The notes below the pieces were generated by a model. The model made no database searches and had not been told where the DNA came from. It saw nothing but the letters and a program-made list of their open reading frames with translations. From the NCBI GenBank assembly GCA_037043015.1, contig CM073322.1, positions 3,049,601 to 3,113,600 of the forward strand: DNA of 64,000 bases, in the 5' to 3' direction. Both the position numbers and the translations under genes were made by a program. Positions 9,776-42,470 of this stretch are shown in pieces (the stretch's first letter is position 1; every line of letters begins with the position of its first letter). The stretch is from Bryum argenteum. Lineage: Eukaryota > Streptophyta > Bryopsida > Bryales > Bryaceae.

Positions 9776-10146
9776 GCTTAAAATGCAAAAAACAACGTTG
9801 ATTTTTGTTGAGTTCTCACAAGATAGGGTGAATATTTCTAATCACTTTTCAAAAACAACAATGTTTTTGAACGGCCTTTTAGAAATATTGCCCTTTGACT
9901 ACGTCCAAAGGTCAAAAACCATAAAAATGTGTGATATTATGGAAGTTTTGGTGATATTAGAGGAATCATTTGGTATTACAGCGTACATGTGTGATATTGA
10001 TGAGCATGCCATTTTGTAGGCATAAATACCTCTGAAACTTCAAAAATATGCTTGTAAAATGGCACGTTTTAGAATGGGAGCCGCGAGCTGGTAGGGGATT
10101 TGGCAAAATGGCACATGGAATACCGCCATTTTAACAGAATTGAGGT
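9776..10146. repeat. Module B (MITE-like), copy 1, left end truncated
   Basis: Ends in ...CCGCCATTTTAACAGAATTGAGG, the inverse of the module's left end (CCTCAATTCCGTTAAAATGG). The internal sequence includes 'caatgtttttgaacggcc' and runs of 'gatattatgg', as in other copies. The left terminus is missing where it meets module A. Confidence 0.65.
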
Positions 10147-11087
10147 TTCATTGAAATAGTTGTTAACCACGTATTTACCTTGCGAATATTTCTTTACTCA
10201 CGGGAGCAGTAGAAGTGCTAGCGTGGATTTTTCAATTACCCTTTGTCGGGTTGCTGAATGAAATTCTATGGATGGATGATATCTAGTAAGTAGATGAATT
10301 CTTATAGATGGATGCAGCCAATTTGGATTGGGTGACGAGGGTGGCGGCTAAGTTGGCAGCTAGGGTTTGGAGGGGGTTTGGGAGTGAGCTCTCATTCTCT
10401 CTCATGAAGTAAGAGCTGGAGCGAGGGTCTCTGAGGTGTGGGTGTGTTAAATAGCGGAGAAAACTACTGCTTTCGGGAGGGGATATTTGCCTTATGGATC
10501 AGAGAGAGTAGTGCGGAGGGGAGAAGTTATTTGTACCATTATGATTTTCAAAGAAGTATGTCTAGATTTGTGTCTAAATTCGTTGAAATGTAATGCAAAA
10601 CTTTCCACTCTAGTGTATTGGGCAAATGGTGTTAGAAGGTGGTACTGATAAGTAGTATTGTTGAAATACTACCATTGTCGTACAGTCATGGACTCCTACA
10701 AGTTCTGTCCTAGCCAGTTTGGAGTCCAGAGGAGGACCAATTTCAAGTCAAGGTTTGTTGTAATATTTGGGAGAGTTGGGCATCAATGTAACTGAACGGG
10801 TAGGAAGAATACCACTTTACAGTGGAGTGTACGGTTACAAAAGTTGGGGCGAGGGTTTGATGAAGTAGGCGAGGCGATTCTCGGAGGTGAAACACCTCAA
10901 GCACCCTTTCATTGCAATTTGTTGAAATGAAAACCTTCAGTTTTCATTAGAGTATGATCATCTGAATCTCATGAATTGAATAAAAGCATAGTTTTTTTTT
11001 TTAATGTACTCTTGTATCATTTAAGAGCGGATTTCTTTGTTAAAACTTCAAGTCTTGTGTTTAGTAGGTTGCATGAATAGAATCCAT
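10147..11087 (-). repeat. Module D in reverse orientation
   Basis: Reverse complement of the D sequence at 12469-13473. It runs from the 'gttaaccacgta...gcaaggt' end back to the 'ggattctattcatgcaacc' start. Together with the forward D copies downstream it forms a large inverted repeat around a B module. Confidence 0.65.
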
Positions 11088-11798
11088 AAAACCTCAATTC
11101 CGTTAAAATGGCGGTATTCCATGTGTCATTTTGCCAAATCCCCTATGTGCCATTTTGCTCCCATTCTAAAACGTGCCATTTACAAGTTTTTTTTTGAACT
11201 GTAGTTCAAACATATTTATGCCTACAAAATGGCATTTTCTTTAATATCACACAATATTATCACACATAATATATCACACATACTCCATAATATCAAGTGA
11301 TTCTTCTAATATCACCAAAGTTTCTGTAATATTACACATTTTTTATGGTTTTTCACCTTTGGACATAGTCAAAGGGCAATATTTCTAAACAGCCGTTCAA
11401 AAACATTGTTGTTTTTGAAAAGCGGTTAGAAATATTTACCCTATCATGTGAAAACTCGACAAAAACCAATGTTGTTTTTTTCATTTTAACCCCTAAACGA
11501 CCACGGCCATCGATTTGGCTTTTACCGTCAAGGCAAAAAAAATAAATTATAGTCAACTTCAAATGTTACGATCTCACATCTGGTGATGATCCAACGGTTG
11601 AAATTTTTTAGAGAACTACCGATGGTAGTCTACTTCAAGATCTTATAGTTAAAATTATCAAAAAATTCCAAAAATATTGGACGTACCCCATTAGTGCGTA
11701 GTGGTCAGTGTTGGGATTTCAAGCTTCCAAATCATCCTGGCTCTTTAGGGGTTAAGCATCCCAAAAAGCGACATTTTACTGGAATTGACGATGTATGG
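11088..11798. repeat. Module B, copy 2, split by a TTAA-flanked MITE
   Basis: Starts CCTCAATTCCGTTAAAATGG and ends in an inverted form of that sequence. It is split at 11490-11751 by a second MITE. Without that insert it would be about 445 bp, like the other copies. Confidence 0.7.
11490..11751. mobile_element. TTAA-flanked MITE, copy 1 (nested in module B)
   Basis: 262 bp starting CCCCTAAAC and ending CTTTAGGGG, flanked by TTAA at 11486-11489 and 11752-11755. Other B copies (for example near 43840) read ...CATTTTAAGCACCCC without a break at this point, so the empty site with a single TTAA can be seen directly. TTAA duplication with ends starting CCC is the rule for piggyBac-type elements. 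Two relatives occur at 47899 and 55759. Confidence 0.8.
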
Positions 11799-12385
11799 AT
11801 TCTATTTATGTAACACCCTAAACACAAGACTTGAAGTTGTAACAAATAAATTCACTCTTAAATGATACAAGAGTACATTCAAGAAAAATTGTGCCTTTGC
11901 TAAATTAACGAGATTCAAATGATCATACCGTAATGCAAACTGAAGCTTTTCTAAGCAACAAATTGCAATGAATGGGTTTTTGAGGTGTTTCACTTTACAT
12001 ATCATACACTTGAAATCAACGGAGAGTTGGAGATCACTTACAAGAATGTCGAGCAGCTTCTTCGCTCTTTGCTCCGCTCACTATTGTCATAGACTCTCTG
12101 CCACTTGCGCACTTTTTCCATGAAACCGACTTGCCACGAGAATTGATCGCCTACTTCATCAAACCCTTGCTCAAACTTTTATAACTCTACTAGCCACTCT
12201 GAAACTAGTATTCTTCCTCCTCTTTCAATTACCTTATCGACTGATCTCTAACTCTCCGGAAGACTACAACAAGCTTCGACCTTAAATTGATCTTGCCCTA
12301 GACTTCACACTGGCCTCGACAAAACCTCACTGGAATACTACAACAAGCTTCGACCATAAACTAGACTTTAAACTGGCCTCGCAAA
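11799..12385 (+). repeat. Module D, forward, partial
   Basis: Starts 'gatgtatggattctattta' and contains the D landmarks: 'aacacaagacttgaagttg', a 'cttctt...ctccgctcact' segment and 'cctacttcatcaaaccct'. It is more diverged than the copy at 12469 and stops at a B fragment. Confidence 0.6.
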
Positions 12386-12468
12386 ATAACCTAGCAAAAT
12401 GACGCATAGCAGATTTGGCAAAATGACACATGGAATACCGCCATTTTAACGGAATTGAGGTTGTATGG
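12386..12468. repeat. Module B, right-end fragment (copy 3)
   Basis: Only the last ~80 bp of a B module, ending CCGCCATTTTAACGGAATTG then AGG. Confidence 0.6.
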
Positions 12469-13473
12469 ATTCTATTCATGCAACCTACTAAACACAAGAC
12501 TTGAAGTTGTAACAAAGAAATCCGCTCTTAAATGATACAAGAGTACATTCAAGAAAAACTATGCTTTTGTTCAATTTATGAGATTCAAATGATCATACTC
12601 TAATGAAAACTGAAGGTTTTCATTTCAACAAATTGCAATGAAAGGGTTTTTGAGGTGTTTCACTCTACACATCATACACTTGAGATCAAGGATGACCACT
12701 TACACAATTATCGAGTAGCTTCTTCTCTCCGCTCACTGTTGTCACAGACTCTTTCACTTGTGCGCTTACTCCATCAAGCACACTTGCCTCCGAGAATCGC
12801 CTCGCCTACTTCATCAAACCCTCGCCCCAACTTTTGTAACCGTACACTCCACTGTGAAGTGGTATTCTTCCTACCCGTTCAGTTACATTGATGCCCAACT
12901 CTCCCAAATATTACAACAAGCCTTGACTTGAAATTGGTCCTCCAAAATAGCGTGGACAAACTAGGAGTCTTGACTGTACGACAATGGTATCATTTGAACA
13001 ATACCACTTATCAGCACCACCTTCTAACACCATTTGCCCAATACACTAGAGTGGAAAGTTTGCATTACATTCCAACAAATTTAGATAAAAATCGAGACAT
13101 ACTTCACTAAAAACTCCTAATAGTACTGATAACTTCTGGCCCTAGCAGTACTCTCTCTGGTCCCTCTACATAACCTTCTACTCTATTCAACACACGAACA
13201 CCTTCACATACAAACCCTAGCTCCAGCTCCTACTTCGTTAGAGAGAATGAGAGCTCACTTCCAAAGGCCCTCCAAACCCTAGCCGCCACCTTCGTCACCG
13301 AATCTAAACTGCTTACATTCATCCATCTACTGGATTTCATCTATCTATAGGATTTCATTCAGCAACTCGACTAATGGTAATCCAAAAATCCACGCTAGCA
13401 CTTCTACTACTCTCGTAACTAAAAAGATATTCGCAAGGTAACTACGTGGTTAACAATTGCTTCAAATAAACCT
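12469..13473 (+). repeat. Module D, forward, near full length
   Basis: About 1 kb with homologues at 29321, 34373 and 42607 and, inverted, at 10147-11087. On the minus strand an early part reads as protein-like (GFDEVGEAILGG, SERASDKESVTTVSGAKKLL), and this is shared between copies. The later part (13130-13470) resembles a 5' leader region with 'aaaccctag' motifs. No known family recognised. Confidence 0.6.
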
Positions 13474-13845
13474 CAATTTTGTTAAAATGGCGGTATTTCA
13501 TTTGCCATTTTGCCAAATCCCCTATGAGCCATTATGCTCGCATTCTATATCGTGCCATTTTACAAGCATATTTTAAAATTGTAGTTCAAAAGTATTTATG
13601 CCTGAGAAATGGCATGTTCATTAATATCACACATGTACTCCATAATATCAAGAGATTTCTGTAATATCACCAAATTTTATGGTTTTTGACCTTTGAACAT
13701 AGTCAAAAAGGCAATATTTCAAAACCGCCATTCAAGAACATTGTTGTTTTTGAAAGGCGGTAAAAAAATCAACGTTATTCTTTTCATTTTAAGCACCCCA
13801 AAAAACCACATTTTACCGGAATAACGCCATTTTAACGGAATTGAG
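13474..13845. repeat. Module B, copy 4
   Basis: Bounded by CCTCAATTTTGTTAAAATGG and its inverse ...CCATTTTAACGGAATTGAGG. The internal part is shorter than in copies 2, 6 and 8. Confidence 0.7.
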
Positions 13846-14469
13846 GATGTATGGAATCTATTTACGTAACACCCTAAACACAAGACTTGAAGTTGTAACA
13901 AAGATATCCGCTCCTAAATGATACAATAGTACATTGAAGAAAAACTGTGCCTTTGCTCACTTCGGACCTTCACATCCATCTCCCGACATTCACATCCAAT
14001 TCCCGTGATCACAGGAGCCCTTACCGAAACGTATGTAGGTCGAGATTTTCGGTACAGAAAGTTGCAGAGAAGTAGCATTTCAAAAACGAGAAAAAAAAAC
14101 TCAACAAGAAATGAAAATCGGAATCGAAAATGAACCTTGATCCGACATTCACATCCAACTACCATGAGCACATGAGCCATTACCGAGGTGTGTTCAGGTG
14201 GAGAGTTTCGGCACCAAAAGTTGCCGACAAGTAACAATTCGGAAACGAGAAGAAAAAAAATTTCAAAAAGTGCCGAAAGAGTGCGAGCTTACTCTTTCTA
14301 GATCGACGTGTGGGACTCGTCTCTAGTCCGAAGCCTCATGACTTCTCCTCCACGTCGTGTCGTCATTGCCTTCAATTTCAATTGCAAATCTATGCCAACA
14401 AGAATCTAGTGCATTTAAACAATTCTTCCATCGTCCACAACATTCTGACAGCTGTCAAGCAGTGCTCGA
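13846..14469 (+). repeat. Start of module D, then linker P
   Basis: The first ~110 bp repeat the start of D ('tttacgtaacaccctaaacac'). The rest (linker P) matches 32190-32885 and precedes module A in both places. It contains two related segments starting 'gacattcacatccaa'. No coding sequence supported. Confidence 0.55.
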
Positions 14470-15915
14470 AGTAAGGTGACATACAAAAACCCAGAAGCAA
14501 GAAGTGATGCGGTGTTTGAAAATGGAATGAAAACACAACTTACAACAACTGTAGTACTACTTGATCACGGAAGGCTCTTTAGTAGAGCTCTTTGCAGTAC
14601 ATACATCACGTGGTGTGGATTGGGGGCTGATGAGGCTATGTATATCTGGGCTCAAAAAGGTTCGAGGGGAGGCTCCCATCTAGGCTCAAAAAGGTTTGAG
14701 GGGAGGCTCCCATCTTTGTGACATAGAGTCTGATTGTTTTTGCAAAGTCAGCCTTACAAGCAAGAAGGGCTGCTTTTATCTCACTTACTTCTTGCAATGA
14801 AACACACACACCTAAATTAATCTCAAAGCTTTTTGACTTTGTCGACTATAAACTTCTCGTTCTATGGTTCAACCACATACTCCACTTTCCATAGCCAAAT
14901 GTGTAGAGCGTTGCTCAAATCAAGCGGGGAACTTTGGAGCCCATCCCACAAAGCCAACTTTGCTTCCTTTACTGCTTTAGTACTTACAAAATCAAATTGA
15001 TGAATAATAAAACAATTGAGAATATTTTCAAACCTACCGTATGAAGGCTTGCAATAAGTTGGTGAGATGAATTTTGCCCTTGGGGTATGCAGGAGGTGCA
15101 TGCCATGGGCTCCATATGTCTCGATTGTGTGTTGAAGTTGCGTTCCTCACACTCCATACTGAATAATTTCAATTGCACAAATACAAAGTTTAGTAGTGGA
15201 TTTCTAATCCTTCACTAACCTGATTGAGAACAAAAGAATATTAAGATGTAATGATATAAGAAGTACTCATTCCGTTAAACAATTGACATTGCCATTTGCC
15301 ATTACGCACTCAAAGTGAAACATTGCTATTTCACAATGAATCAAACCATAAAATAGTGAATGACAAAATTTAGTAAGACTTTGAACTTGCCATTTTATAG
15401 TTTGTTCAACACAGCTTGGCACTTCACAAAAACAGAAATGTTGCCATTTGCAATTTCATAGTTTGATTCATTAGTTTGTGAAACGTTGCCTTTTGCCATT
15501 TCACAATATATTTCATTTCAATTTTCCATTTCAAAGTTTCACAAACTTTGAAAGTTCAGCAAACTTTAAAGTGGCAAGTTCAAAGTTCACAAAGTGTGAA
15601 ATGGCAAGTTATGCTTGTCTATTCTAAAATGGAATGATCAACCATCGCACCTTGGACAATTAGAGCCAATATAGAAAGAAAATCTTAGAAATGGATTTTA
15701 CTCTACATTGAGGTTTCAGATGGTGATGGTGTTGCAAAAACTACACTGCTCTAGATTGTGCTTTAGAAAAAAGAAAACTAAAATTTTGAAATATGATGCA
15801 CCATGTGTAGAGCGTGTATATTGACGTCAGCTTAAGAGGTGCCAGTTTGTGGGTGAGAAGGGTCGAAAAGTCTACCTCAAGGAATTTGCGCAATAAGACA
15901 CTGAGATGTAGAATT
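14470..15915. repeat. Repeat module A, copy 2
   Basis: Same order of landmarks as copy 1. The minus strand keeps KEAKLALWDGLQSSPLDLSN (around 14862-15000) and IKAALLACKADFAKT (around 14700-14810), interrupted by stops. A 34-bp segment 'ggctcaaaaaggttygaggg' to 'catct' is tandemly doubled near 14650-14720. Confidence 0.65.
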
Positions 15916-16769
15916 ATGTATGGATTCTATTCACGCAACCCACACAACCTAAGACTTGAAGTTGTAACATAGAAAAATTGTGCCTTTGCTCAATTTACGA
16001 GATTCAAATGATCATACCCTTATGAAAACTAAGTTTATATATTCAACAAATTGCAATGAAAGGGTGTTTGAGGTGTTTCTTTCTACTTAACAACAGTTCC
16101 GTCAAAATGGCGTTATTCTACTAAAATGGCACTTTTTGGGTGCTTAAAATGAAAAAAATGATGTTGGTTTTCGTCGAGTTTTGACATAATAAGGTAAATA
16201 TTTTTGAACGGCCGTTCAAAACAGCAATGTCTCTTAACGGCCGTTCAAAACAACAATGTCTCTTAACGGCTCTTCAGAAATATTGGCCTTTTACTGTGTC
16301 CAAAGGTCAAAAACCATGAAAGATGTGCGATATTATGGAAAATAGGGTGATATTACAGAAATTTTGGTGATATTACGGAGTACATGTGTGATATTAATAA
16401 ACATGTCATTTTGTAGGCATAAATACTTGTGAACCTCACTTCAAAAATATGCTTGTAAAATGATACGTTTGCATAACATGGTACTTTAGCTCTGCTAAAA
16501 TGGCACATGGAATAGTGCCAATTTTAATGGAATTGATGTTACATATTATACACTTGAAATCAAAGATGACCACTTACAGGACTATCAAGCTGCCCCTTTG
16601 CTCCGCTCACTGTTGTCATAGACTCCTTGTCACTTGCGCGCTCACTCCTTCAATCACACTTGCCTCCAAGAATTGCCTCGCCTACTTTATCAAACCCTCG
16701 GCTCAACTTTTGTAACCCTACATTCCACTGTGAAAGTGGTATTTTTCCTTCCCCTTCGTTACAGTTGGA
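15916..16769 (+). repeat. Module D split by module B (copy 5)
   Basis: The start of D (15916-16090) is followed by a B module (about 16091-16545, ends degenerate). D then resumes (16546-16769) with 'gatgaccacttacaggac' and the minus-strand peptide SERASDKESMTTVSGAKGQL. D is then interrupted by the 54-bp minisatellite. Confidence 0.55.
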
Positions 16770-16956
16770 CATTGCTCCCCGTATCTCCTCTTGCTTTCCG
16801 CAAGCTGCCTTGGCCCTCGTGTTTTTGTGTTTTTGTATCTGCTCTTCCCTTCGGCAAGCAGCCATAGCCCACGTTTTCTTGTGGTTTTGTATATCCTCTT
16901 GCCTTTTGCAAGCAGTCTTGGTCCTTGTGTTTTTGTCTTTTTGTATCTGCTCTTGC
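16770..16956. repeat. 54-bp minisatellite, left part
   Basis: About 3.5 units of a 54-bp repeat whose core is TTGCCTTCCGCAAGCAGCCT followed by a T-rich half. The array continues at 28286 beyond the CACTA element, which therefore inserted inside it. Because 54 is divisible by 3, several frames on both strands stay open; these are not genes. Confidence 0.9.
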
Positions 16957-17198
16957 CACTAGTACAAAACCACGATTATTTGACTGGGGGCACTTGACTG
17001 CCTAGTCAAATTTTTAAAAACGAGTCAAAAATCGTAGTAAAATTGTCCATAGTCAAGGCTTAGTCATATGTGTAGTCAACAAATAGCGGCACCTCGATGG
17101 GAACGCTGGGGAACAGAATTTCAGTGTGTTCCCCGACGGACGTCATCTCCTTTGACGCAGTCCTCCCCGAAATATGACTGCACGCAGTCATAAGACAT
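16957..17198. promoter_or_regulatory. CACTA left subterminal repeat cluster
   Basis: Contains repeated TGACT and AGTCA half-sites, some paired as palindromes such as TGACTGCACGCAGTCA (17176-17191). By analogy with En/Spm these are transposase or TNPA binding sites. A TIR-like string TACTACAAAAAAATCC follows at 17199. Confidence 0.7.
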
Positions 17199-18129
17199 TA
17201 CTACAAAAAAATCCGGGATTTTTCAGATGCTCTCCATAATGCTGAGTGAGTTTGAGTTTTGAGGTTTCGCTTCGGTTAAGCCCAAATCCTGGTCTCTTTG
17301 CATAATTATTTTATTCGTCACTGTACAAATTTTATTTGCAAGTAACTATCTAGGACATCAAAATCACATAAGGTTGTATCTCTGTTAGATCTAAGATTTC
17401 AGATGTAAATTAATGTGAATACCGGCAAGGAGATAGTTACAAGTACTAATTAAAGACTATCTTCTGAAATCATATTGCTTATGCAAATGGTTACTAGAAG
17501 TACATATTTAATCCAGTGCGGAACAACATGATCATCAATTCATCGACTTCTCATAATGATTCATGGTACATTCATAGCTAGTTAATTGAAAAATTAAAAA
17601 TTAATGAGACAGCCAATTCCCCTTCTCAGGTTGGAGGTAATTATTAGCATCAAAGTTTATGATCTTTATGATCCGTGATAAAGTTGATAGGTTAAGAAAA
17701 ATCTGAGTATGGTGACTCCATACACCTTCTCAATCATATAAGTTCAAAGGAGTTTGGATCATAAAAACGACTTTGTCAAATGGCCCACTTAGGCAAAATT
17801 TGGTGCACATCATGCATGGGTACATATTAGCGTGAATCCTGGCGGCAATTTGTGACAAGTTTCAGCATTCATGATCACTGATTTGTACAGGTACAGCTCA
17901 TGCCTTAGTGAAATACACGAGGGACAAACATGCTCATACAATGTTTGGACAATTGTAACTATCCTGCATCCAATGAAACAAGATTCTAACATCAAAAACA
18001 TAAAGAGCGCTAAAGGCCAGGGAGGGTAATGTAACTTTTCGAAAACCAATACTAACAAGCGAAGGTAGGAAGTACAATCACTTGCAACGAGGCTAGCTAG
18101 CGGTAGTTCTTGCTATGGTGTATGTAGTT
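17199..18129. other. Noncoding left part of the CACTA element
   Basis: Lies downstream of the transposase stop. It holds no convincing reading frame; the ORF-like stretch at 17810-18058 has no recognisable content. It is presumably 3' UTR and spacer, and has no TGACT repeat cluster. Confidence 0.45.
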
Positions 18130-21100
18130 TCAAATGTCAGGGTCTTCTGAATCCTGAATGTGCATCTCCATATTCACTTCATTCGTACTCATCATCCGAC
18201 ACCCTTGAAGTACTGGAGCGCTTTGTGTAACATCATCCACATGTATATTTGGTAGTAGGCCTGGATGTGCGTCAACACATTGCATCTGAAGACATTGTAG
18301 CTCGGGGAGATCATCAGTGCTTGAGGCAACTCGAACACTGCGTGGTATTCTTCGAAGCACGATCTTCCATCCTGGATTATCTACTACGTCGACGGTATAG
18401 ATCTGTTGAACATGTCGGGGAAATGCAAATGAGTCAGCCGAGAACGGGATCAATCTCCCGAACTCGATAAGCGTGAATCCGTACTCGTCGCGCTTCACTG
18501 TCGCTCGGGCACCAGATGTATTCGCCTTTACCCAATTACAATACAGTACAACAAGTTCGTACCTCCCGAAGTTGACTGCTATGATCTCCTCCACCCATCC
18601 AATGTACTCCAAGTTTGCATTTCTGATGTTTCGATCTTGCAAACTTGCTCGATAGTCTTGTGAGAATGTTGCTGAGACACCGCTGTCACATGTGAGTAGA
18701 TCAGCTTCTGCTGTGCGGACACGAATATGATTCCCGTAAGCGTACATGGATCGATATGACCTTGCCTCCAACGATGGAGGGAAAACCAAAGCTTTGACAT
18801 CCTCTGCTGTGTCATGTCCTCTCTCCAAATTGCGCTTAATTTCTGCAACAAACCATTTGTGAAACGCTTGCGCTTGCAAATAATCCGGGACCTTGGAATT
18901 CTGGCGACGGTTCTGTCTTCGCCACTCCCCCCTTGCACGTTCTTTGGCGGCCATTGTTGCGGTATATTGTCTACATTGCAAGCATGAATCGGGTTAATTA
19001 GGACATGATTTATGCAAAAGTAGCTGTGCATACCACGCAACAGAAGGTGGGATGTTCATTGCTTACTCTCTGTAGATTTCTAGTATATCGGCGTTGTTGA
19101 GGACGAATTCGTGAATCCATTGACGCAGCTTATCTGTTAATATCATGCGGCGGCCGTTGCCTTCCAGTATCTCATCGTACATTCTTGGGTCTTCCATATC
19201 ATCCCAAATCCGACGTTGCGTTAAGGTGCAGTCCTGCATGTATTCGGTGCAGAAGCCAAGAGTTTTGTCCATCACGTACCCCGCTGCCATCGATCCCTCC
19301 GGGCGGTTACGTTGTCGAACATAGCCTTTTAAAATTTTGAGATACCTCTCCACTGGGTACATCCATCGTGTGTGTACTGGTCCACAAATATCCAATTGTT
19401 GAACAAGGTGAATTGGAAGGTGGGACATGACATCAAAGAATGAAGGGGGGAAAACCTTCTCAAGCAAGCACATTGCTATAGACGTCTCCTCTAGCAACCC
19501 CTTTATACTTGTTGGATCGATAGCCTTCATACACAATTGATGAAATACCCGACATATTCTTAGAATGGCTACACGCACGTCCTTCCGCAGCAACGTCCGG
19601 ATGCAGAGGGGTAAAATTTGCTGCATCAATACATGGTAGTCGTGGGATTTCAACCCCTTTAAGTCACCATCTGTAGTTATCCTCTTTGCTAGATGCCCGA
19701 CGTAGTTGGTGGGCGTTTTCAAACCCCGGAGTATTCCTACGAATATTTCTTTTTCCTTCTTCGAAAGAACATATGGAGCTGCCGGTAGAGCAAGAGACCC
19801 CGGCTTCTTTCCAGGTATCGGATGCAACTCTGGGCGTATGTTCACCTCTGTTAAATCCAGACGGACTTTTAGCGAGTCTTTCAATCCCCATATTTTTTTC
19901 AATATGTTCTCGCATAGGTTTTTTTCACAGTGCATGACATCTAAAACATGCCGAATCATCAGGAACTGCAAAAGCGGAGGGACAGAATTAGTGATCATTA
20001 GTAGTAATGTTAACACCATCACAATGTGTACCCCCATGCATAGGAATGTAATGTACGGAGATAAAGTGACGAACCTTCCAGTATGGAAGGCCATACAAGG
20101 CCGATAAGCGCTTCACCCCTGTATCATGGACTGGATCAATTTCACCGTCATTCGTTGTTGGAGATGACTGAAGTTGCCATCTGCGTCGTTGAAGTGCAAA
20201 TCGCATAATATCCCGCCCTTTCAAGTTTCGTGGGGGGGGGGACGCTGTTCTTCGTGGCCATCGAATGCTCGCTTCATTCGCCGATATGGATGGTTCAATC
20301 TCAAAAACCTCCGATGACCTAAGTAGATGTTCTTCCCGAGGGCGGTTGATCTCCTTGTAGTGACGTGTGGTCCACATTCTGGGCAGCCCCTGTAACCTTT
20401 TGTTACTTGCCTTGAGGCTAAGCTATACGCAGGGAAATCATGTATACACCATATTAACATTCCAAACATACGAAAGTGCCTTCTATTCTCAGAAGCAGAG
20501 ACATCTACGGCATCAACACCACCCCATAGTATTTGCAACTCCTCTATTAGTGGGGCCATGTAGATGTCTATATTTTCAGATGTCACACTTTCTTTGCCAG
20601 GAATTAACAAGGCTAGCATGATGAAGAATTGCTTTGTAACAAGCCAGGGGGGGAGGTTGTAGTTGAACAGTAGTATGGGCCACGTAGAGTGACTCAACGA
20701 TTGGTTCGAGAAGGGATTAACACCGTCTAATGCCAAACCAAATCGAATGTTGCGTTCTGATGATGCAAACTCTGGGTACAACTTGTTTATGTGTTTCCAT
20801 GCCTTCGAGTCCGGTACGCACTCCACTTTCTCGTCAGTTTTCTCCCTTGTTGCATGCCATTTGTTTAGCTCAGCTAGACGTTTGCAGCGAAACATTCGTA
20901 ACAACCGAGGAATAAGCGGAAAGTGGCGGAGCACCTTCACCGGGCGAGTGGAAAAATTGTGCACATACCTCGAAGTGTTGCATTTAGGACAGACTTTTGC
21001 ATCTTGCAATTCCTTCCTGAATAGGCAGCACCCGTTTTGGCATGCGTGAATGGACACATAGCTCACTCCCATTCGTTGAATGTATTTCATAGCTAGGTAT

Positions 21101-22674
21101 TGGGATGTTGGTAGAGAGTTAGGACATGGCAAGAGCTCCCTCAACAACTTCCACATCTCATTTCTAAAGCTGTTTGTCACACCAAACACTGTAAAGCAGT
21201 TCTGTATAAGGAGGGTGGCTACCAATGTACTGTGCCGAGATCCTTCAAACAACGGCTTTGTTGACTGGTCAAACAAATTCGTCATGTCTTCTACTTCTGC
21301 CTCGCTATCCATGTTCATGTTTGCTTGTGGGTAGTTCATGTCTCCCTCCAGTTCACTTGCAGGTAACTCTAAATGTGATGGGGACGTTTCCTCATCATGC
21401 AGAACTACGTCGTCATTGTCATATCGGCCTAAGCATTCAACAATCATTCGGTGAACATCAACTGTGCCGTCACACAATGTGACCTGATTCTTGTCTACTG
21501 GGCTGGAGCCGGTGACCGGATTGGTTTCTGTTTGGTCCGACGGGCTGTGACAAAGAGGCCGAGAACGTGTTGGAGAGTCCACTTCTACCCTCTACAACGA
21601 CACACGAGCATGAGATCAAACATGAAACCAGTATTCTGGTAATAGTCCACATGCAAGAGACATATAGGAAAAATAAATAAGAATGTGAGTGGCACGAAGT
21701 CTGTGCATCTGTTAGTATCATTCAAAATCAAGTTTGCAAATCGTATTCCTTTATTGATTCACATGATAGAAAGTATACAACTCATCTCCAACTGCAATGT
21801 CTCGGGTTGCGACGGTCATTGTGTACCCCCATTCGTGTGTACACCATGGTCTAGGTAAATCAATGTACTCCCAGATGCAATTCCCTATTTCGTGTCGTCC
21901 TTTACTACTGTTGATGAAGCCCGCAACATTTCCATTTAGTACATCACCATCCTGATAGACATTATTCTGCAGTTGCAAGACGTATCGTTTGAATCGCGGA
22001 TTGGAAGTACATAGTGAACGATACTCAGATCGAGAGTGGAGAGTGCCCACAAACGGCAGCAACTCATCGCCTACAGCTGCTGGCTGCATGGCAAACAAAC
22101 CCCATCCCATGAAAGGGAACTTCGAAACTTTAATCTCCCAAGTACGGCCGAAAAATGTAAACTGCGTCAACTTTGGGATAGGACCTGGATGCCATTGTCC
22201 GTGTAATCTTGTCGACGTTGAAGCGCACGCGTTAGATAATATAGGTGTTCTATCAACGAGCTTTCCTATTATAGGGATCCTTGCCGAAATAGTCCCTTGC
22301 AGAGTTGCAGCGCGTCTGTAATTGCAGCAAGAACAAGCGGCCGACGCTGTTCCTACATTGTTAACACTTGGTCTGCATTAAGTTCCGCTATGTTCTTTGA
22401 AGGAGAAATTAAGGGAATCTCTGACAACAAATTGCAAAGGCCGAAACTGAGAGAGGGTTGTAGATAGGTCACTAACCAGTAAAGATTTCGTGAGTTGGGG
22501 ATCGCGTTTGTACAACCGCAGATGCTTCCGGATTGTCTCCCGACGCATACGTCTCCCCCCCATGCATCGCTTGCAGGGACATGAGTAACTAGTGAGTCCC
22601 TGTGCGTCAGCCTCTTTTTCCTCCTCTTGCCACAATGTCAAGTCCGCCAGCTCCCTCCGCGATTGTGTGTCCAT
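18130..22674 (-). CDS. TNP2-type CACTA transposase with an embedded SET domain
   Basis: Proposed DDE-type transposase acting on the CACTA termini. In coding order: a transposase-associated zinc motif (CPCKRC...RETIRKHL, 22674 to about 22480); a SET-like segment (22377-21763); the TNP2 catalytic region (21591-20075, with HACQNGCCLFRKEL, CPKCNTSRY, FGLALDGVNPF, GCPECGP); a DUF4218-type region (19965-19067, with LDVMHCEKNLCENIL, RYLKILKGYVRQRNRPEGSM); and a DUF4216-type C-terminus (18970-18130). Introns 21762-21592, 20074-19966 and 19066-18971 join the exons in frame. A single frame change falls at a run of ten G at 20232-20241. The first two segments share a frame but a TAA at 22380-22378 separates them, so a short intron there or two separate genes is possible. 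Confidence 0.85.
21763..22377 (-). CDS. SET-like (lysine methyltransferase-type) segment inside the CACTA transposase gene
   Basis: An open frame of about 205 codons reading on from CSCCNYRR to YTFYHVNQ. It has the order of SET landmarks: GWGLFAMQPAAVGDELLPFV (N-terminal strand and GD turn), GNVAGFINSSK (where active enzymes have NHSC), NCIWEY, and VATRDIAVGDELYTFY (C-terminal core with the closing Y). The canonical NHSC is replaced by NSSK, so catalysis is uncertain. Upstream cysteines (CSCC) could be part of a pre-SET-like zinc region. The final codons abut a GT donor (21762-21761). Splicing from there to the acceptor before 21591 continues in frame into TNP2. Alternatively the frame ends at the TGA-free stop 21753-21751, beside an AATAAA, as a separate gene. 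No known CACTA transposase carries SET, as far as I know. Confidence 0.75.
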
Positions 22675-23127
22675 CAATTAATGCATGAAAATGATGAACC
22701 ACTTGACTATGATGATGAACCACTTGACTAAGAGTATGACTATCTTGACTGACAGTAGTCACAGTGTGACTAGAACGGGTCACTAAGAAGGGTTAATTTG
22801 ACTACCCATAGTCAACACAGCCATCTTAGTCATTGGGGATGACTATACAAGCTCAGGAAAATGACTGCAATTTTGAAAAACAACGGCTATTTGTAGTAGC
22901 CAGGGGTGCCTACGAGTAGGTTGGTAGGTGGTTGCCAACCCTAATTGCATTTAAAGCAACGCCGTCATTTGAAATCTTCTCTGATTTGAGTGTCAAATCG
23001 AGTAACATCAACGAAGATCATAGCCGCCTACGCACATGATGTTCTTCTACCTCCTTGCAGTCCGATTTTCCTCCATGGCTGTCATTTTGCAGCAAAATCT
23101 GAATTTTTTTGATCGATTTGGAGAGAG
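22675..23127. promoter_or_regulatory. Divergent promoter with internal TGACT/AGTCA cluster
   Basis: The 450 bp between the divergent transposase and accessory genes. From about 22690 to 22870 it holds at least ten TGACT or AGTCA half-sites, for example TGACTGACAGTAGTCA (22759-22774). This is the same motif as in both subterminal regions, so a protein that binds the ends could also control both genes. A right-TIR-like TTTGTAGTA occurs at 22890-22898. Confidence 0.65.
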
Positions 23128-26100
23128 ATGGAGTCAAGTGAGGGAACGACAGTAGTGGGAGCGAGTGACGAGGTTGGAGAAGAAGAGATCGTGGAGGAGA
23201 CGCTCATTACCGTCACAGCATCCGGCAGCACCGATAACGACAAATCAGACGCCGATTCTGACGCCAAAGCGGCCGGCGAGAACAACGACGGATCTGACGA
23301 TAGAAAAAGTGACGACGACGAGGGCCACAGTGAGAAGGAGGACGTCAGCGACGGTGAAGCAAACAGCAAAGGCGTCGGTGACGAAGGCGAGGGTGACGAG
23401 GGAGAGTGTAGGAGTAGTTCGGCTGCAGAGAGTGACGGTGAGGAGGGCGACGGTGAGGAGAAGGCCGAGGGTACACACAGCGACGGTGATGAGGGCGAGG
23501 GTAAAGAGTGTGAGGACGACGTCGGCAAGGGAAGAGCCAACAGTGAGGGCGAGGGGGGCTCGGGCGACTGTGGGAGTAGCTCCGCTGAAGATAGCGACGC
23601 CGAGGAGCCTGACGCCAAACAAGGCACCGATAAGGCCGAGGGTGTAGAGAGCGACGGTGACGAGGGGGACGAGGGTGAGGAGGGCGACACGGAAGATTAC
23701 ACCCCCTCCAACGAAGGAGACGACACCGACTCCAGCACAAAGTCCTCCGCTGAGTCAGTCGACACAAGCAGCACATCCACATCCGACAGCTCGTCGAAGA
23801 GGCGAAAGAGAAAGCGAGGTAAACGGGCACAGCCGAAGAAGAAGGAGGTTCCGGCACCCGCCTGCGCGTACGAGCTCCAGAGGCAGAAGAACGTTGAGCG
23901 CAATCAGGCCTACCTGAAAGAGCTCGGAATCTCGGGGCTTGCTGCACGGCTGTCTTCGGCAAAAATTCAGTCCCCTTCGAAGTCATCACCAACATCATCG
24001 AAGAGGTTAGAGCACGAGTCAAACTCTCTGCCACTGAATGCTGGTCAATCTATGCAAGTTCAGGCGGTGCTGCGCACCATTGCAAATCTCAGTGACCTGG
24101 AAGTTCAACACATTTTTCGAAATGTAGCTTTATTTCCACAAATTTCTGCCGGAGTGTTAGAGAGAACTGCAATCCTTCTCACCGATGTGTTTGAGGACTC
24201 CAGGAACGTATCTGACGAAGACCTCATTCGTCCGCCCAGAAGGTCTACGCGTTTGAGACCTGAACGGGATTTGTCGCCGCCTGTGAGGAGGTCTGGACGC
24301 AAGATCACGAAGGACGAGTCAAAATTTTTGACACCGCCGAAGAAGCAGCCACCAAGAGCTGTCAAGAAGGGCAAGAAGGTTGCTTCGGAGTCGGAATCCA
24401 CCGCGGACTCAAAATCCAGCGCTGAAGAGGAGGACGAAGAAGAGAACAAGTCGGTAGGGGAGGAACGACCGTTGGAGCCTCCCGTGAAACGGGCACGTCC
24501 GTCTTCACCATCACCGAAAGTGACCCAAGAATCTGCGCCCAAGACTCCAAAGAGAGCGATTCAATTCGACACACTCGCAACCAATCCGCAGGAGTGGAGT
24601 GTGAAGAAGCGGGACAACCTTCCCGGCGCTAGAGGTACCACGATACCGCCAAGGCCCCCTCGGCCATTTGCAACACTGCCAAGGCCCCCTCGACCGTTGC
24701 TGTTTCCTTCAGTTGAGGACATTATCACAGCTACAATACCCACCAAGATGTCAGAGGATACGTGGTCCGGAGATGGCTGCCACCTTGACTTCACGACGCC
24801 GTATGAGCTGTTCGCGGAATCTAATGTTCGAAGAGAAGTGGTGGATTTCCTACCAAGTGCAACACAGAACATGGACGCTCGCGATCATGAGATTGCTGAC
24901 TTGGACTTGGCGATTGAGGAACAACAACTCCAACTCCTCCGGAAGAAAAGGGCGGCCATGCGGTACACGGCAGGTGAGCTTCAACGAGCCGGCGAAGGCC
25001 CAAGTAGTCCCGCTCGGTCGGTCCTACCTCGATGCTCTTGAAAGGCCAAGAGGAGGCAAGTACTCAAGCAACAAGTGGATGTGCTTCCGATCCGAGAAGG
25101 CGAGGGGCAAAAGAGGTTTGTTGTGGAGGTGGACTACTGGGGATTCCGGTGGGGGGATTATTGACAAACGTGGCTAACATGCTTGCGAGGTCAAACAGAG
25201 ACATCGACTTGGCGTCGACAATTATTCGCAGCATGATATGGGGATGTTGATGGCTGTGAAGGAATCGGTGGACAACGTCTTCGAGTACAAGGGAGGCTTG
25301 CAGAGGGTGATGGATAAGGCTTTCCACACCATGTTGAAGGGCCAGCTCAAGAGTGCAAGGTACCAGCTCAAGAAATTGATGCTAGAAGGATCTCCCAAGC
25401 CTCCTCATATTAGACAGGATCACTGGGTAAATCTTTCGAAACTCATAGTGGATGAGCGGAAGATCATTGAAGCAGAGAAGATGCGAGCAAACCGGGCACA
25501 CGTGAAGAGACTCTCCAAGGCTGGTCGCACGGAAGGGGCCGTGAAGTCCAATCTGGTAATGGCCACTCTCACTTAATTATGTCATATTGTGATCGATTAG
25601 GTTGAGAGCCCATGCAGTGACAATGCTGATGATTGACTAATATTCAACTACAAGATGGATTTGTGGCGGCGATGGAGCTTCAAATGGTCTCCAAGTCGGG
25701 AAGAATTAGAGAGAGAAATGGCTCGTGAGAAAGGGGCCCGAAAGCGGAAGGTGGGCGTGGCGTGGTTAGGGAGGTGTCGGGAGGAAGCGGACTAGAGCCC
25801 GATCACCATCAAGCCGAGTAACTCATTTGGCGTCGGAGACGAACCTCGCCTCTCGCAGTCCGGTATAGAGGCGAGCATATCGCTCATTATGGAGCATCCG
25901 AGAATCCCCATTCCAGTCCATCATATGCGGCGCAAAAACAACTCTCCAACCCTCCGGAGTACGCTGCTGCAAAAATCCACACTCTCGGCCAAACACCCTC
26001 GCCTTTGCATTCGCACCTCAACTTAGCTTCTAACCGGGTGGGAGAATCATCACCCAACGGATTATTTTTTTCTTGCACCCATTTGAGATGATGAAACTAA

Positions 26101-27469
26101 TCGTAATGTTTCATTTATCGTGTTTATCGTGTTGAAGATGCCCGAATGTGAAATTCGATCTTCGACAATCAAATGCGTGCTTCTGCACACAGGTAGCTGA
26201 GCGTCCTCCTTCCAGAGCAGATGTCGATGATGGCACACCGGACTTGGAGGTGCTCCGTGAAATCGACGCCATTGGAATTGTTGCATCAACTTCGCCTACC
26301 CCGTTGAAAGAAGACAATGCGGCTCCAAAGGCCGCTTGAAACGGCCAAGAATGACGGAGGTGGAGAAGCTCCAAGCGAAACCCGTGAGCAACGCCCGGAC
26401 TCGGGCAAGATCCGACACTACGGTGTAAGGGTTTAGACCCATGCTGGAAGGCACCGAAGCGAGAAGAGGACCGCTGAGCCGCAGCGTAAAGATAAGGAGG
26501 CTAGTGCGAAGGCAGGGAACGAGGGGAAAGAGAAGGCCCCTGCCTCTGCCAGCAAAGCGGGGAAGGAGAAGAACCTCAACTCCCCCACTAAAGGTAAAGA
26601 GGCAGTTACGAAGGCGGGGAAGGAGAAGGCCGATGCCCTAGCAAGGGCGACGGGGAAAGAGAAGGCCGACGCCCCAACAAGCAAAGCGGGGAAGGAGAAG
26701 GCCGATGCCCAAGCGAGCAAGGCGGGGAAGGAGAAGGCGGACACTCCAATGAGCAAAGTGGCGAAAAAGAAGGCTGATGCCCCAAATGAGCAAAGCGGGA
26801 AGGAGAAGGTCGCGCCCTGCGAGCAGAAAGCGAGGAAGGAGAAGGCGGTTGCAGCTGCCCCTGCAAGCAAAACAGGGAATTCAAAGGAGAGGGCCGATGC
26901 GCTTACAAGCAAAACCAGGAAGGAGAAGCCTTTAGAGGAGACCGCAAAAGCAGCCACGAAGGAGACCAAGAAAGGAGCCACGAAGGAAACGCCAGATTCC
27001 AATGCCACCCCAAAGGAGAAGGCCCGGGGGATAAACAACAATAAATTGGGTAAGGATGGAAAACACCGCCGAACGTCGACTTCAACCGAGGTCTGGCAAT
27101 AACTCCTTCGGAAATTCAGTTTATGGAACTGCATTTTAGCAATTTTCTCTAACATGTGTAACTTTCAACCGTTTGCAGGTTCAATTCGAACCCGGTGACC
27201 AAGTGCACATCATGGGCGTTGACGAGGGCGAAGAAGACAAGATTGTAGCCGATGGAGAAGTGCTCAGCGTGGAGGGGGGCACGTTACACGGCATGCAACT
27301 AACTGAGGGCATGGTATCAGTACAAGTCCTAAAAACATACGACAACAACTACGTCCTCTATCAACCCATCACCCTCGATGATCCACCGGTGACTAAGATT
27401 GGCGAGGCACTCCACCAGTGGATTGCATGGCCCACCGAATTCCTCCGTCACCTAGAGTGTTTTTTCTAA
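23128..27469 (+). CDS. CACTA accessory protein (Ptta/En/Spm type), multi-exon
   Basis: Second gene of the CACTA element, probably a DNA-binding partner of the transposase. ATG at 23128. Residues 1-210 are almost all D, E, S and G. Next come a basic nuclear-localisation-like stretch (KRRKRKRGKRAQPKKK), the helix YELQRQKNVERNQAYLKELG common in plant transposon-associated proteins, and R-rich pairs RRSTRLR and RRSGRK. A strong donor (CAG/GTGAGC, near 24972) ends the first exon. Later coding pieces are 25238-25576 (HWVNLSKLI...ANRAHVKRLSKAG, like the plant Ptta motif), about 26193-26339 (VAERPPSRADVDDGTPDLEV), a KEKAD repeat region (26455-27100), and 27180-27469 (ending GEALHQWIAWPTEFL, like the C-terminal domain of En/Spm-associated proteins). 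The splicing between pieces is not fully resolved. Confidence 0.7.
26480..26925 (+). repeat. Coding repeat: K-A-G-K-E-K-A-D units
   Basis: About nine imperfect units of 36-45 bp encode SKAGKEKADAP-like blocks within the accessory gene. They are highly charged and probably disordered. The mirror reading frames on the other strand are by-products of this repetition. Confidence 0.8.
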
Positions 27470-28285
27470 GTTAGAACCCGATACAGATTTATAGCACAGA
27501 ACTTTCATGCATGTATTCTAGACTGTGTACAACTACATGTGGTATATGCGGCTTGAACAACATACACCTAAAATTTTGATTCAATCGCAAACCCATAACT
27601 GTGCAGCATTTCTGATTGATATTTAGCAATACTCGTAGCCTGTTCTATCTAGACTCCACGAAACACATAACACCTTAATTAACAACTCACAACCACATGA
27701 CAAAAATTAGTCATCGCCGATGACACCACGTCGCCACTACTCTCGACTATACACAGTCATCCGAAATGACGGCAGTCATCACAATTGACTCCAACTAGTC
27801 AACTTTGAATCCCTACCTGACTCCTCGAAGTCATATTCACACAATATACCCTCCTTAAAACCGCGTCGATGACTGCATGCAGTCAGCAGCCTTTAGATGG
27901 CAACGAATCCATTGACTGAATTATGTAAAGTCGTATGACTGTAAATAGTCGTAGTATTGTAAGCCACACTCTGCCATCATGACTAGACTTAGTCAACCGA
28001 ATTCACGTAATTCACAGACAACTATTGACTGGTTGCAGTCATAAGTTATGACTAATCCTAGTCATTCAAACGACGTCCCAAGTCCAGCCCAATCGAGGTC
28101 CCAAAAATCGTCGGGAACGCAGCGCATGGGAACGCCGATGTCCGTTTTTGACTGCGAGTCAAAATGTCCGGAGCGACTTGTCCTTTTTGACTCAAAATAG
28201 TCCTAGTCAAGTTCGAAAAACATGTCCGTTTTTGACTGCTGGCTAGTCAAAAATGCAGTCAAAAATTCCGGGATTTGTACTAGTG
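27470..28285. promoter_or_regulatory. CACTA right subterminal repeat cluster
   Basis: After a 220-bp AT-rich 3' flank, 27695-28275 carries the densest set of TGACT/AGTCA sites. Paired palindromes include TGACTGCATGCAGTCA (27869-27884), TGACTGGTTGCAGTCA and TGACTAATCCTAGTCA. GGGAACGC occurs here (28099, 28119) and also near the left end (17099), so the two subterminal regions share more than one motif. Confidence 0.75.
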
Positions 28286-28790
28286 TGCATTCCGCAAGCT
28301 GCCTTGGCCCTTGTGTTTTTGTGTTTTTCTATTTGTTCTTGCCATTCGCAAGCTGCTTTGGCGTTCGTGTTCTTGTGATTTTATATCTGCTCTTGCCTTT
28401 TGCAAGCAGCCTTCGCCCTCTTGTTTTTGTAGTTTTGTATCTCCTCTTGCCTTCCGCAAGTAGCCTTGGCCTACGTGTTTTTGTCGTTTTGTATCTACTC
28501 TTGGCATTCGTAAAGAACCTTGGCCCTCATGTTTTTGTGTTTTTGTATCTCTTCTTGCCTTCCACAAGCAGCCTTCGGCACTTGTCTTTCGCAAGCAGCC
28601 TTGGCGAGTGTTTTTGTGTTTTTGTATGTCCTCTTGCCTTCTGCAAGCAGCCTTGGCCCTCATGTTTTTGTGTTTTTATATCTGCTCTTGCCTTCCGCAA
28701 GGAGCCTTGGCCCTCGTGTTTTTGTGTTTTGGTATGTGCTCTTGGCTTCCGCAAGCAGCCTTCACAAGCAAGCCCTCCACAAGCAGCCTA
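28286..28790. repeat. 54-bp minisatellite, right part
   Basis: About nine further units of the array interrupted by the CACTA element. One unit is shortened near 28585. The translated repeat is 18 residues on either strand (for example LPSASSLGPRVFVFLYLL), which explains long but meaningless reading frames here. Confidence 0.9.
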
Positions 28791-29320
28791 CCAACCTTCT
28801 ACCAACAACCTTCTGGCTAGATTTTATGATTTCCCTCATCCTGCTCTTGGGTTAGCCTTGCATACCGTTCTCTGAAAAACTTTGAAATTGTATTACTTGT
28901 TTTTCTTCTCATGTCCACTTTAAAGACATTGTTGCTCACATTGTTTGTGTGATGGCTTAGTGATGTGAGGTAAGAAGCATTGACACCCGCTCCTCATTCA
29001 GCACTTAAAGTTGTGAGCTCCAGACTAGAACAAGGACTCTAATCCTCGCGTTCTTGTTCCTACTCTACCACCGCTCTCCCTGAGTCTTTTGTAGTTAGCA
29101 TCCCAATTGCTTTTGAGTCTTTTGTAGTTAGCATCCCAATTACTTCTTATCAGTTGTTCCACTCTTTAATTTTGTCGCATTTCAACTTGCCTAACTCTTC
29201 GTAAGAAGTTCCCGGATAATTCTGCAATGCAAGTTCTATAACGAGTTCCCTATTCCTATTGTTCTTATTTTAGCAATTTACTCCTTGCCTTCTCTTCTGT
29301 TGAACCTCTTCGTAGACTTC
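28791..29320. other. Non-coding stretch between minisatellite and module D
   Basis: No gene seen. A tandem duplication of 'gagtcttttgtagttagc' plus 'atcccaatt' occurs at about 29082-29152. Confidence 0.5.
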
Positions 29321-29906
29321 TAATGTGCAAACTCTCCCAAATATTACAACAAGCCTTGACTTTAAATTGGTCCTCCCCTACACTCCAAACTAGCGTGGAC
29401 AGAACCTGAAGGAGTCCTTGACTATACGGTACTATTTCTACAGTACTACTTATGAGCACCACCTTCTAACACAATTTGCCCAATACTCAAGAGTGGAAAT
29501 TTTGCATTACATTCCAACAAATTTAGACACAAATCAAGACATACTTCATTGAAAACTCATAATAGTACATATAACTTCTGCCCCTGGCAGTACTCTCTCC
29601 ACATAACCTTCTCCACACTAAGACTCTCACACACAGACCCTAGCTCCTCCTCCTACTTCCTGAGAGAGAATGAGAGCTACTCCCAAACCCCCTCGAAACC
29701 CTAGGTACTGACCTAGCGGCCACCCTCGTCACCAAATCCAAATTGCCTGCATTCATCCATATTCTAGATTTCATCCATCCATAGGATTTCATTCAGCAAC
29801 TTGACTAAGGATGATCCAAAAATCCACGCTAGCATTTCTACTACTCTTGTAATTAAAAATATATTCGCAAGGTAACTACGTGGTTAAGAGTTGCTTCAAT
29901 TAAACC
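29321..29906 (+). repeat. Module D, later part
   Basis: Continues D where the copy at 16769 was cut by the minisatellite, from 'caaactctcccaaatatt' to 'ggtaactacgtggttaa'. A minus-strand peptide (VLSTLVWSVGEDQFKVKACC) is shared in part with other D copies. Confidence 0.6.
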
Positions 29907-30328
29907 TCAATTCTATTAAAATGGCGGTATTCCACGTATTATTTTGCCAAATCCCCTATGAGCTAGTTTGCTCGCATTTTATATCGTGTCATTTTACAAG
30001 CATATTTTTAAATTGTAGTTCAAAAGTATTTATGCCTGAGAAATGGCATGTTCATTAATATCACACATGTACTCCATAATATCAAGTGATTTCTGTAATA
30101 TCACCAAAATTTCCATAATATCACACATTTTTATGGTTTTTGACCTGTGGACAGAGTCCAAGGGCAATATTTCTAAACAGCCGTTCAAAAACATTGTTGT
30201 TTTTGAAAGGCAATTAGGAATATCTGCCCTATCGTGTGAAAACTCAAAAAAGAACCACCATTATTTTTTTCATTTTAAGCACCCAAAAAGCGACATTTTA
30301 GTAAAATAACGCCATCTTAACGGAATTG
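29907..30328. repeat. Module B, copy 6
   Basis: Full copy of about 420 bp with CCTCAATTCTATTAAAATGG at the left and the inverted form at the right. It retains the uninterrupted site CATTTTAAGCACCC used to date the TTAA MITE. Confidence 0.75.
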
Positions 30329-30394
30329 AGGATGTATGGAATCTATTTACGTAACATCCTTAACACAAGACTTGAAGTTGTAACAAACATATCC

Positions 30395-32185
30395 GCTGTC
30401 GTGTTGGAATTGCTTCCAACGTGTACACCTTTAGTGTACAGTAGGTTTTATCGTAATGTTAGTTAATAAAACAAAACCACTTATATCGTGATTAGAATCA
30501 CGGTGGTTTGGGTTTAACACCTTTGGTGCTAAACTCTTGTCACATGTATAGCTCAGGGGTAGGTAGGCCGATGGTTGGGTTTCCTGCTTCACTAGCGTGC
30601 CAAGCCGCGGCCGCCCGATGCGCTCAACGGGATTCGAACCCCGGACCGTCGGGACAGCAATTGACCACTGATTCCAACCCACCAAGTCCATGGCTTGGCG
30701 ACTGGGATCCGCAATCAATAGCCCTTATACCTCTTAGATTTCTTCATGTGATTTTTATTTTCTATTTAGTACATTAGAATTTCTTTGTTTACCAAGGCTT
30801 TGATAATTGCATTGTAGTAAATAAAGGCAGTTAGAAGTAAAACTGCAGGCATTTGGTAGTGTAGTTGACTTTTATGGTGTTATTAGACTCCTATAGGGAA
30901 CCTAAACTAGGGGTATGGGCTGATGTATGGTCACTCTTATCCCTTAGGTGGAGAGGAAAGAAAGGAGGAAGAAAGGGGAAAGTAGATTCCCTTTGGAGTT
31001 CGTGTCAAGGTGGAGTTTTTGGTGTGTAGGAAGAGAGATTTTTTGGAGTGTGCTGATGTTGAGTTGGGAGAAACTTATGAAAAATAAAGTTTGTGATGTT
31101 GTTCCTTGTGCAATTATCTTTCTATAGACACCTTTCATGAATGATTTGGACTTGTGAGCAAAAAGTTATCAGAGTTAGAAGTTTTTGAGAATTCAAAGAA
31201 TTTGTGACTACCCGATTGAGGAGTCAACTTTTCGAGGTTCTTAATTCTCAACCAATAGCTTTTTTTTGCTCAAATATTTCAAGGTCTTGTAGTTCTTGAA
31301 GTCTTCTATCCAAAAAGACCTTGCACTCACGATTTGAAGCATTTTAGAGAGTTTTATAGTGATTTGAAGAAGGAGAGGTCTGCTGCAGACTTATTCTCGG
31401 CCTACATCTTTAGATGCCCATATTTTGTGGACAGTAGTTTAGATTGTTTTGAGATTTTGAGGGAAGTCAGAAGGTGTTGTTAGCTTTCCAAAAAGCTATC
31501 GCACTTGTTCATTGGACTCGTGAGCTGTTCGTGAGAGCCATTTGAAGTTGAGAAGTTTTCCTTGGAGTTTCGAGCTTGCTCCTTCAAAGGCTTCCTTTGA
31601 GGTGGGAGTGAAGGTTGAAAGTTGGAGAAGCAAATCACACCAAAACTTGAAGATCTGAAGAGCCTTTAGGCTCTTCTTTGTGTTGTGGCTTGTGGTCCGA
31701 TTTCCTTCTTGTTATTCCCAGCCGGCTTTGGAGGCTAGTTGCATTTCCTTTCTTGCATTGTAAACCCGTTGCGAGCTTTGTGTTTACACTTAGCTTCATT
31801 TTGTGTTGTGGCAACGAAGTGGGGTTAACGGCCTACATGGTTGATCTTATATGTTGTTCCCGCTGGTGAGGGCGCTCCCTGGTCACCGTGGGTTTGAAGT
31901 TTAGAGTCCATCTTACGGACGGCAGCTCGTGTCTGCTGTCCCGTTCTACCCGTCCGATGACATGTGGTTTCTTATTACCTACCCGACCGAAACCCTTACG
32001 TTGTAGAGCCAGCCACATGATAGGCCAACGGACCCGTGTTTGAAGATTCGAGACTCGAGACAGAAGATTGAAGAACAAAGACTGAAGATAGAAGATTGTT
32101 TATCTCACATCCTCTCATCGAGTCATTCCTAATTGCAGCCAGACACCCCGTGTGTTCCCAAAGCGTGCTCCTCTCATACCCGACA
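30395..32185. mobile_element. 1.79-kb element with TG/CA ends, likely a non-coding LTR-type fossil
   Basis: Module D reads without a break at 13895-13925 but is split here by 1791 bp that begins TGTCG and ends CGACA. CCGC flanks both sides (30391-30394 and 32186-32189). TG...CA ends with a 4-bp duplication fit an LTR-type element, perhaps a solo LTR or a non-autonomous form, but no internal coding domain or paired LTR is visible. The first 150 bp contain several short hairpins. Family unknown, age moderate. Confidence 0.5.
30625..30720 (-). other. tRNA-like pol III B-box region
   Basis: On the minus strand GGTTCGAATCCCG (near 30628-30641) matches a tRNA B box. A weaker A-box-like string (TGGAATCAGTGG) lies upstream at suitable distance. 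It may be the head of a tRNA-derived SINE or part of the surrounding element. It does not fold as a tRNA gene by eye. Confidence 0.3.
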
Positions 32186-32189
32186 CCGC

Positions 32190-35340: not shown

Positions 35341-35498
35341 GACGACAAAGAGATAGGGGAAGGTAGAGTGTGATGCTGGCTTTACGGCTTTACCCAAAGC
35401 CCAAACACCTCGATGAAAACGCCTTGATTACCATCCATAATGGCATCTGGTAATTACAGGTTTACCCTCTCCGGCCCATCCTCCTCGCTAGAGAGTTA

Positions 35499-35800: not shown

Positions 35801-35848
35801 CTTAGCGACGTCAGCACGTCACAAAGCCCCCTCATTTCCATTAGTGGA

Positions 35849-42427: not shown

Positions 42428-42470
<43 letters not shown>

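Follow-up and report, generated by a model that had tools for sequence, protein, structure and literature searches.

A divergent SET domain lies, intact and in coding orientation, within the transposase gene of a complete CACTA element of the moss Bryum argenteum, and a stop-free in-frame path connects it with the TNP2 core. The best overall explanation, to which we assign a probability of about 0.45, is that the SET segment belongs to the element's own transposase gene as one of its exons and that the product is aimed at the element's own chromatin. Taken separately, inclusion of the SET exon in the transposase reading is probable, and a chromatin role of the SET module is less probable than this. 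The window is the whole 64-kb stretch of DNA that was analysed, and all positions refer to it.

The enclosing element displays CACTA termini with TIRs, a 3-bp TSD, a TNP2 (Transposase_21) domain and subterminal repeats of a short motif, as in CACTA/EnSpm transposons. Its bounds and motif arrays are as follows.

16954-16956: TSD TGC, left copy
16957-28285: complete CACTA element, 11,329 bp, read by eye and then by script
16957-17200: left terminus and subterminal TGACT array, 9 TGACT/AGTCA (mean 0.64, maximum 4 in 1000 simulations)
22675-22900: central intergenic TGACT array, between the divergent genes, 11 TGACT/AGTCA (mean 1.15, maximum 6 in 1000 simulations)
27700-28285: right subterminal TGACT array and terminus, 24 TGACT/AGTCA (mean 1.86, maximum 8 in 1000 simulations)
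28286-28288: TSD TGC, right copy

The two termini begin with CACTA and have CACTAGTACAAA in common, with all of the first 12 bases exact and 25 of 30 identical overall. Both flanks belong to one 54-bp tandem repeat family, and joining them regenerates the repeat, which identifies 16957 and 28285 as the insertion ends. The tandem array itself (CTTGCCTTCCGCAAGCAGCCTTGGCCC...) occupies 16738-16957 and 28286-28800 and is interrupted by the element. These ends are not based on the brute-force scan for terminal repeats, which returned too many matches to repeat families. Several related repeat copies, direct and inverted and 60-99% alike, are present at 8450-16750 and 29300-43900. The sequence CTACTACAAATAGCCG at 22884-22899 was also suspected to be an element end and was rejected, having no partner in the window. 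In the remainder of the element TGACT/AGTCA is depleted (16 observed against 24.2 simulated). The central region at 22675-22900 is presumably the promoter region, and its TGACT cluster would suit an element that regulates its own promoters.

The element has two divergent genes, and their parts, together with the proposed SET exon, are listed below in the order of transcription of the transposase gene.

22477-22674, minus strand: exon A, from the ATG, 66 residues, Transpos_assoc-like (PF13963, E 1.2e-4, 22.6 bits, below the cut-off of 27.7)
21763-22161, minus strand: proposed SET exon (PF00856), 399 nt, 133 codons, phase 0-0, frame open, acceptor 22161 with a score of 2.8
21592-21762, minus strand: proposed intron between SET and TNP2, phase 0/0, donor 4.5 and acceptor 5.5, equalled by 7.5% and 5.4% of sites, respectively
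20242-21591, minus strand: TNP2 exon C as far as the C run (PF02992 Transposase_21, E 1.3e-68 over 20221-21591)
20232-20241, minus strand: ten consecutive C (the C run) on the coding strand, where the frame changes, from the sequence and the ORF table
19067-19965, minus strand: exon D, DUF4218 (PF13960, E 4e-37), with an intron at 20074-19966
18130-18970, minus strand: exon E, DUF4216-like (PF13952, E 7.1e-6, 26.9 bits, below the cut-off of 30.6), with an intron at 19066-18971
23113-27469, plus strand: second gene, divergent from the transposase gene, several ORFs from the ORF list

The break of frame at the C run in this copy is either a sequencing error or real decay. The second gene gave no Pfam match above cut-off over 23113-27469; it includes an acidic open frame of 642 residues and an ORF with KEKAD-type repeats, and its last ORF (27140-27469) is, we presume, reminiscent of the ends of the En/Spm TNP1 type.

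The first-pass annotation had placed a SET domain here from ordered sequence landmarks, and both the landmarks and the Pfam profile bear this out. The minus-strand frame 22377-21754 is open for 208 residues, and PF00856 aligns to it over positions 1-104 of the 105 in the profile (residues 91-204, E 8e-8). The score of 33.1 bits exceeds the cut-off of 22.4, and the 149-residue C-terminal part alone scores 34.3 bits. The landmarks are located as follows.

22107-22090, minus strand: GWGLFA
22071-22045, minus strand: GDELLPFVG
21933-21901, minus strand: GNVAGFINSSK
21813-21757, minus strand: VATRDIAVGDELYTFYHVN

The order of the domains and the element ends at 16957 and 28285 likewise confirm the proposal that the CACTA element is complete and that SET is flanked in it by the transposase-associated motif on one side and the TNP2 core on the other. 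When solved structures were searched with the 208-residue frame, nine of the ten matches at E<=1 were SET methyltransferases, and the tenth, an unrelated tautomerase (E 0.39), aligned to the stretch preceding the SET domain. With the 149-residue part, all 14 matches at E<=10 were SET methyltransferase chains (best E 0.019), comprising eight of ASH1L, two H3K4-specific enzymes and four PRC2 chimeras; one of these chimeras, 5kkl_B, does not carry methyltransferase in its name, yet it aligns at the same place. The ASH1L alignments are limited to residues 31-99 of the 149-residue part. No match to SET came from NCBIfam or PHROGs, and an AlphaFold model of the SET segment made without relatives (pLDDT 35.6) is too poor for judging the fold. 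Judged by its sequence, the SET domain is genuine, though highly diverged. A given stretch of 208 codons remained open in 2 of 20,000 Markov-1 simulations, a figure that holds for a single place and frame and is uncorrected for the many places available. The GC content of SET (0.455) resembles that of TNP2 (0.467) and differs from that of the next intron (0.363).

The motifs around the presumed active site bear on whether such a domain could work as an enzyme. In the ASH1L alignment, FINHS is replaced by FINSS and YLGE by FVGT; that is, the His of NHS is Ser, the Glu of YxGE is Thr, and the canonical NHS and YxGE pair of an active SET lysine methyltransferase is absent. The change from NHSC to NSSK pointed out in the first pass is therefore real (H to S), but it does not settle catalysis. 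SET domains of the PR type, such as that of PRDM9, do without NHSC and some of them are active, so the H to S change is no proof of inactivity. By eye, GWG, the NHS asparagine, a downstream GN and a final Tyr (FYH) are retained; this Tyr, in ELYTFYH near the C-terminus, is a candidate for the catalytic tyrosine. The substituted motifs would suit a SET fold that is fused to the transposase, has lost its enzyme activity and offers a surface for binding histone tails or partners, whereas the retained residues and the active PR-type domains argue against such a loss. We consider this non-catalytic module somewhat unlikely; it shares ground with the main explanation, from which activity alone separates it.

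Whether the domain reaches the transposase depends on splicing, which was judged with splice-site scores from approximate matrices. The donor at 22476 (GTTAGT), directly after exon A, scores 8.6 in phase 0, outranks every other donor upstream of the SET domain and is equalled by 0.3% of the 679 GT on the strand. Among phase-0 acceptors in the SET frame, 22161 ranks first, with a moderate score of 2.8, and the exon that it would open contains the domain and about 18 residues preceding GWG. Better acceptors were tried and rejected: 22315 (score 8.0), which the first-pass annotation had joined to this donor (junction 22480/22316), is out of frame and runs into a stop at residue 87, 21 codons past the junction, and 22352 (score 4.7) leads to a stop at residue 94, 28 codons past the junction. 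Similarly, the extent of 21763-22377 given to the domain holds as an open frame, but the exon is better set at 22161-21763; when read in the SET frame, 22377-22162 does not score as coding, as would be expected of an intron, and the first third of the open frame 22377-21754 is probably intronic. Within the SET frame, Met first occurs at residue 90, right next to GWG, so the domain depends on a start further upstream, which exon A can supply. On the downstream side, the intron 21762-21592 is in phase 0/0, as had been claimed, and is plausible, although its scores are middling (4.5/5.5). They are close to those of the clear intron 19066-18971 (4.1/5.1), and the other clear intron, 20074-19966, scores higher (7.9/6.7). 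The acceptor at 21708 (6.0) is slightly above that at 21591 (5.5), and stops occur in frame beyond 21708. The conceptual product of this path is stop-free for 648 residues up to the C run and contains Transpos_assoc (weak), SET and Transposase_21 in that order; an additional small exon in the gene model is possible.

Several observations count against the fusion: the moderate acceptor at 22161, with better acceptors leading to stops; the rank of 21708 above 21591; the frequency of in-frame GT-AG pairs by chance (85 of 234); the near-equal codon scores over the SET exon, where the SET frame is barely favoured (0.12 per codon, against 0.09 and -0.05); the break at the C run; and the changes at the His and Glu motif positions. 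A further one is that a path skipping the SET exon stays open for 515 residues, the end of exon A and the start of exon C both being in phase 0. This would suit a passenger, that is, a host SET exon carried into a TNP2 intron, usually spliced out and without a role in the element, and the weak acceptor and ambiguous codon scores of the SET exon point the same way. The capture would be of the Pack-CACTA kind; the uptake of host sequence by CACTA elements is established, according to PMC13317346, and the present element differs from Pack-CACTA in that it retains its transposase gene and its SET frame is open. Against a passenger, the frame is intact across the whole SET profile, and the domain is far from solved canonical SET proteins, unlike a fresh capture. 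As to the two origins offered in the first pass, a captured host exon or a domain long fixed in this transposon lineage, the best structure match, with E of only 0.019, argues mildly against a canonical SET gene having been captured recently. On balance, we find a passenger unlikely.

Retention of the last intron (21762-21592) gives another possible product. Reading would stop after residue 202, a few residues beyond the SET domain, so that a 202-residue Transpos_assoc-SET protein could act in trans while a SET-skipped transcript supplied the transposase. The position of this stop and the middling splice sites of the intron are compatible with such a separate protein; on the other hand, SET can be joined to TNP2 in frame, at splice sites that score much as those of the clear intron 19066-18971 do, and we regard a separate SET protein as improbable.

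Based on the results presented above, the fusion of the SET exon to the transposase is favoured by a domain that scores above cut-off over the whole profile, on the same strand and in the same frame as TNP2 and inside confirmed element ends; by the 648-residue stop-free product, with its domains in order and a symmetric 0-0 exon that fits the domain; and by the TNP2-like GC of SET. The TGACT arrays, placed at the ends and the centre and depleted elsewhere in the element, favour its being aimed at the element itself. The stronger points for the SET exon are its orientation, the intact domain, the fit between exon and domain, and the first Met abutting GWG. In the mechanism that we propose, the donor of exon A at 22476 would be joined to the phase-0 SET exon at 22161-21763 and this in turn to the TNP2 exon at 21591, yielding a Transpos_assoc-SET-TNP2 protein in which SET would lie between the N-terminal zinc-type motif and the catalytic core. 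The TGACT-rich ends and the central region would be bound by the transposase, possibly together with the second gene's product, and the SET module would thereby be delivered to the element's own chromatin. There it may methylate or bind histone lysines, with the outcome that expression of the element and access to it would be favoured. The strongest form of this proposal, a plant CACTA transposase that contains a working histone lysine methyltransferase, is aimed at the TGACT arrays, sets a permissive mark on its own element and evades silencing, is doubtful in our estimate.

Several known systems invite comparison. HarbingerS and MuDR families of Phytophthora reportedly took up SET methyltransferase genes (Kojima and Jurka 2014, cited in PMC12730594); they, too, are DNA transposons with an incorporated SET histone methyltransferase gene, but they belong to other superfamilies and hosts, and here the SET exon lies within a CACTA transposase gene. 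SETMAR, the known SET-transposase fusion and a host gene that arose from a transposon insertion next to a SET gene (PMC8616336), similarly has SET N-terminal to a (mariner) transposase in one protein; in our case SET is inside a complete mobile element, with transposase domains on either side. In fungi, EnSpm and other elements carry a TET/JBP dioxygenase for which an escape from silencing has been proposed (PMC12730594). They include EnSpm/CACTA-type elements with a chromatin- or DNA-modifying enzyme, although this is a DNA-modifying dioxygenase and no SET is involved. VANDAL elements with VANC anti-silencing proteins, and KIU genes that carry Ulp1 (PMC13317346), offer another parallel; the likeness lies in a transposon-encoded protein that recognises short motifs of its own family and counters silencing. 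The difference is that these are MULE elements, and the accessible portion of PMC13317346 does not report SET for them. Among the matches listed in a search that covered titles and abstract openings and few subscription journals, we found no published description of SET in a CACTA/TNP2 transposase, which suggests weakly that the arrangement is unpublished. Transposon-borne SET genes are already reported from Harbinger and MuDR, and the present case places a SET exon in a CACTA transposase gene.

Relatives were also sought in viral and prokaryotic collections, which are uninformative on plants. No relatives were found in viral contigs by SET, TNP2 or the terminal repeat, in prokaryotic genome contigs by TNP2 or the terminal repeat, in phages by SET, or in plasmids by TNP2 and SET. 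Pattern matching gave four stretches for SET in viral contigs and 14 for TNP2 in genome contigs, and none was confirmed by tblastn. One viral contig with a degenerate GNVAGFIN match was rejected as a chance hit; its best similarity is a 19-residue stretch in a longer unrelated frame, and its other ORFs are phage-like by eye. The Transposase_21 search matched none of the 14 control genomes and is hence uninformative. Elsewhere in the window, 47352-50144 and 52995-54130 (minus strand) are likely host genes, a WD40-repeat gene, which we take to be AIP1-like, and eIF3g (PF12353, E 2e-19); both seem to be of a plant type. A probable copia-type retrotransposon remnant lies at 59444-62984, with a zinc knuckle (PF00098, E 9.1e-6), a gag_2 match below cut-off and an ORF at 62520-62984 that is polymerase-like by eye.

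Should the transposase indeed be expressed with its SET exon, a chromatin-writing module would be tied to a protein that recognises the DNA of its own element. This would make the countering of silencing by a plant transposon directly testable, and would amount to a histone modifier, guided by sequence, that occurs in nature.
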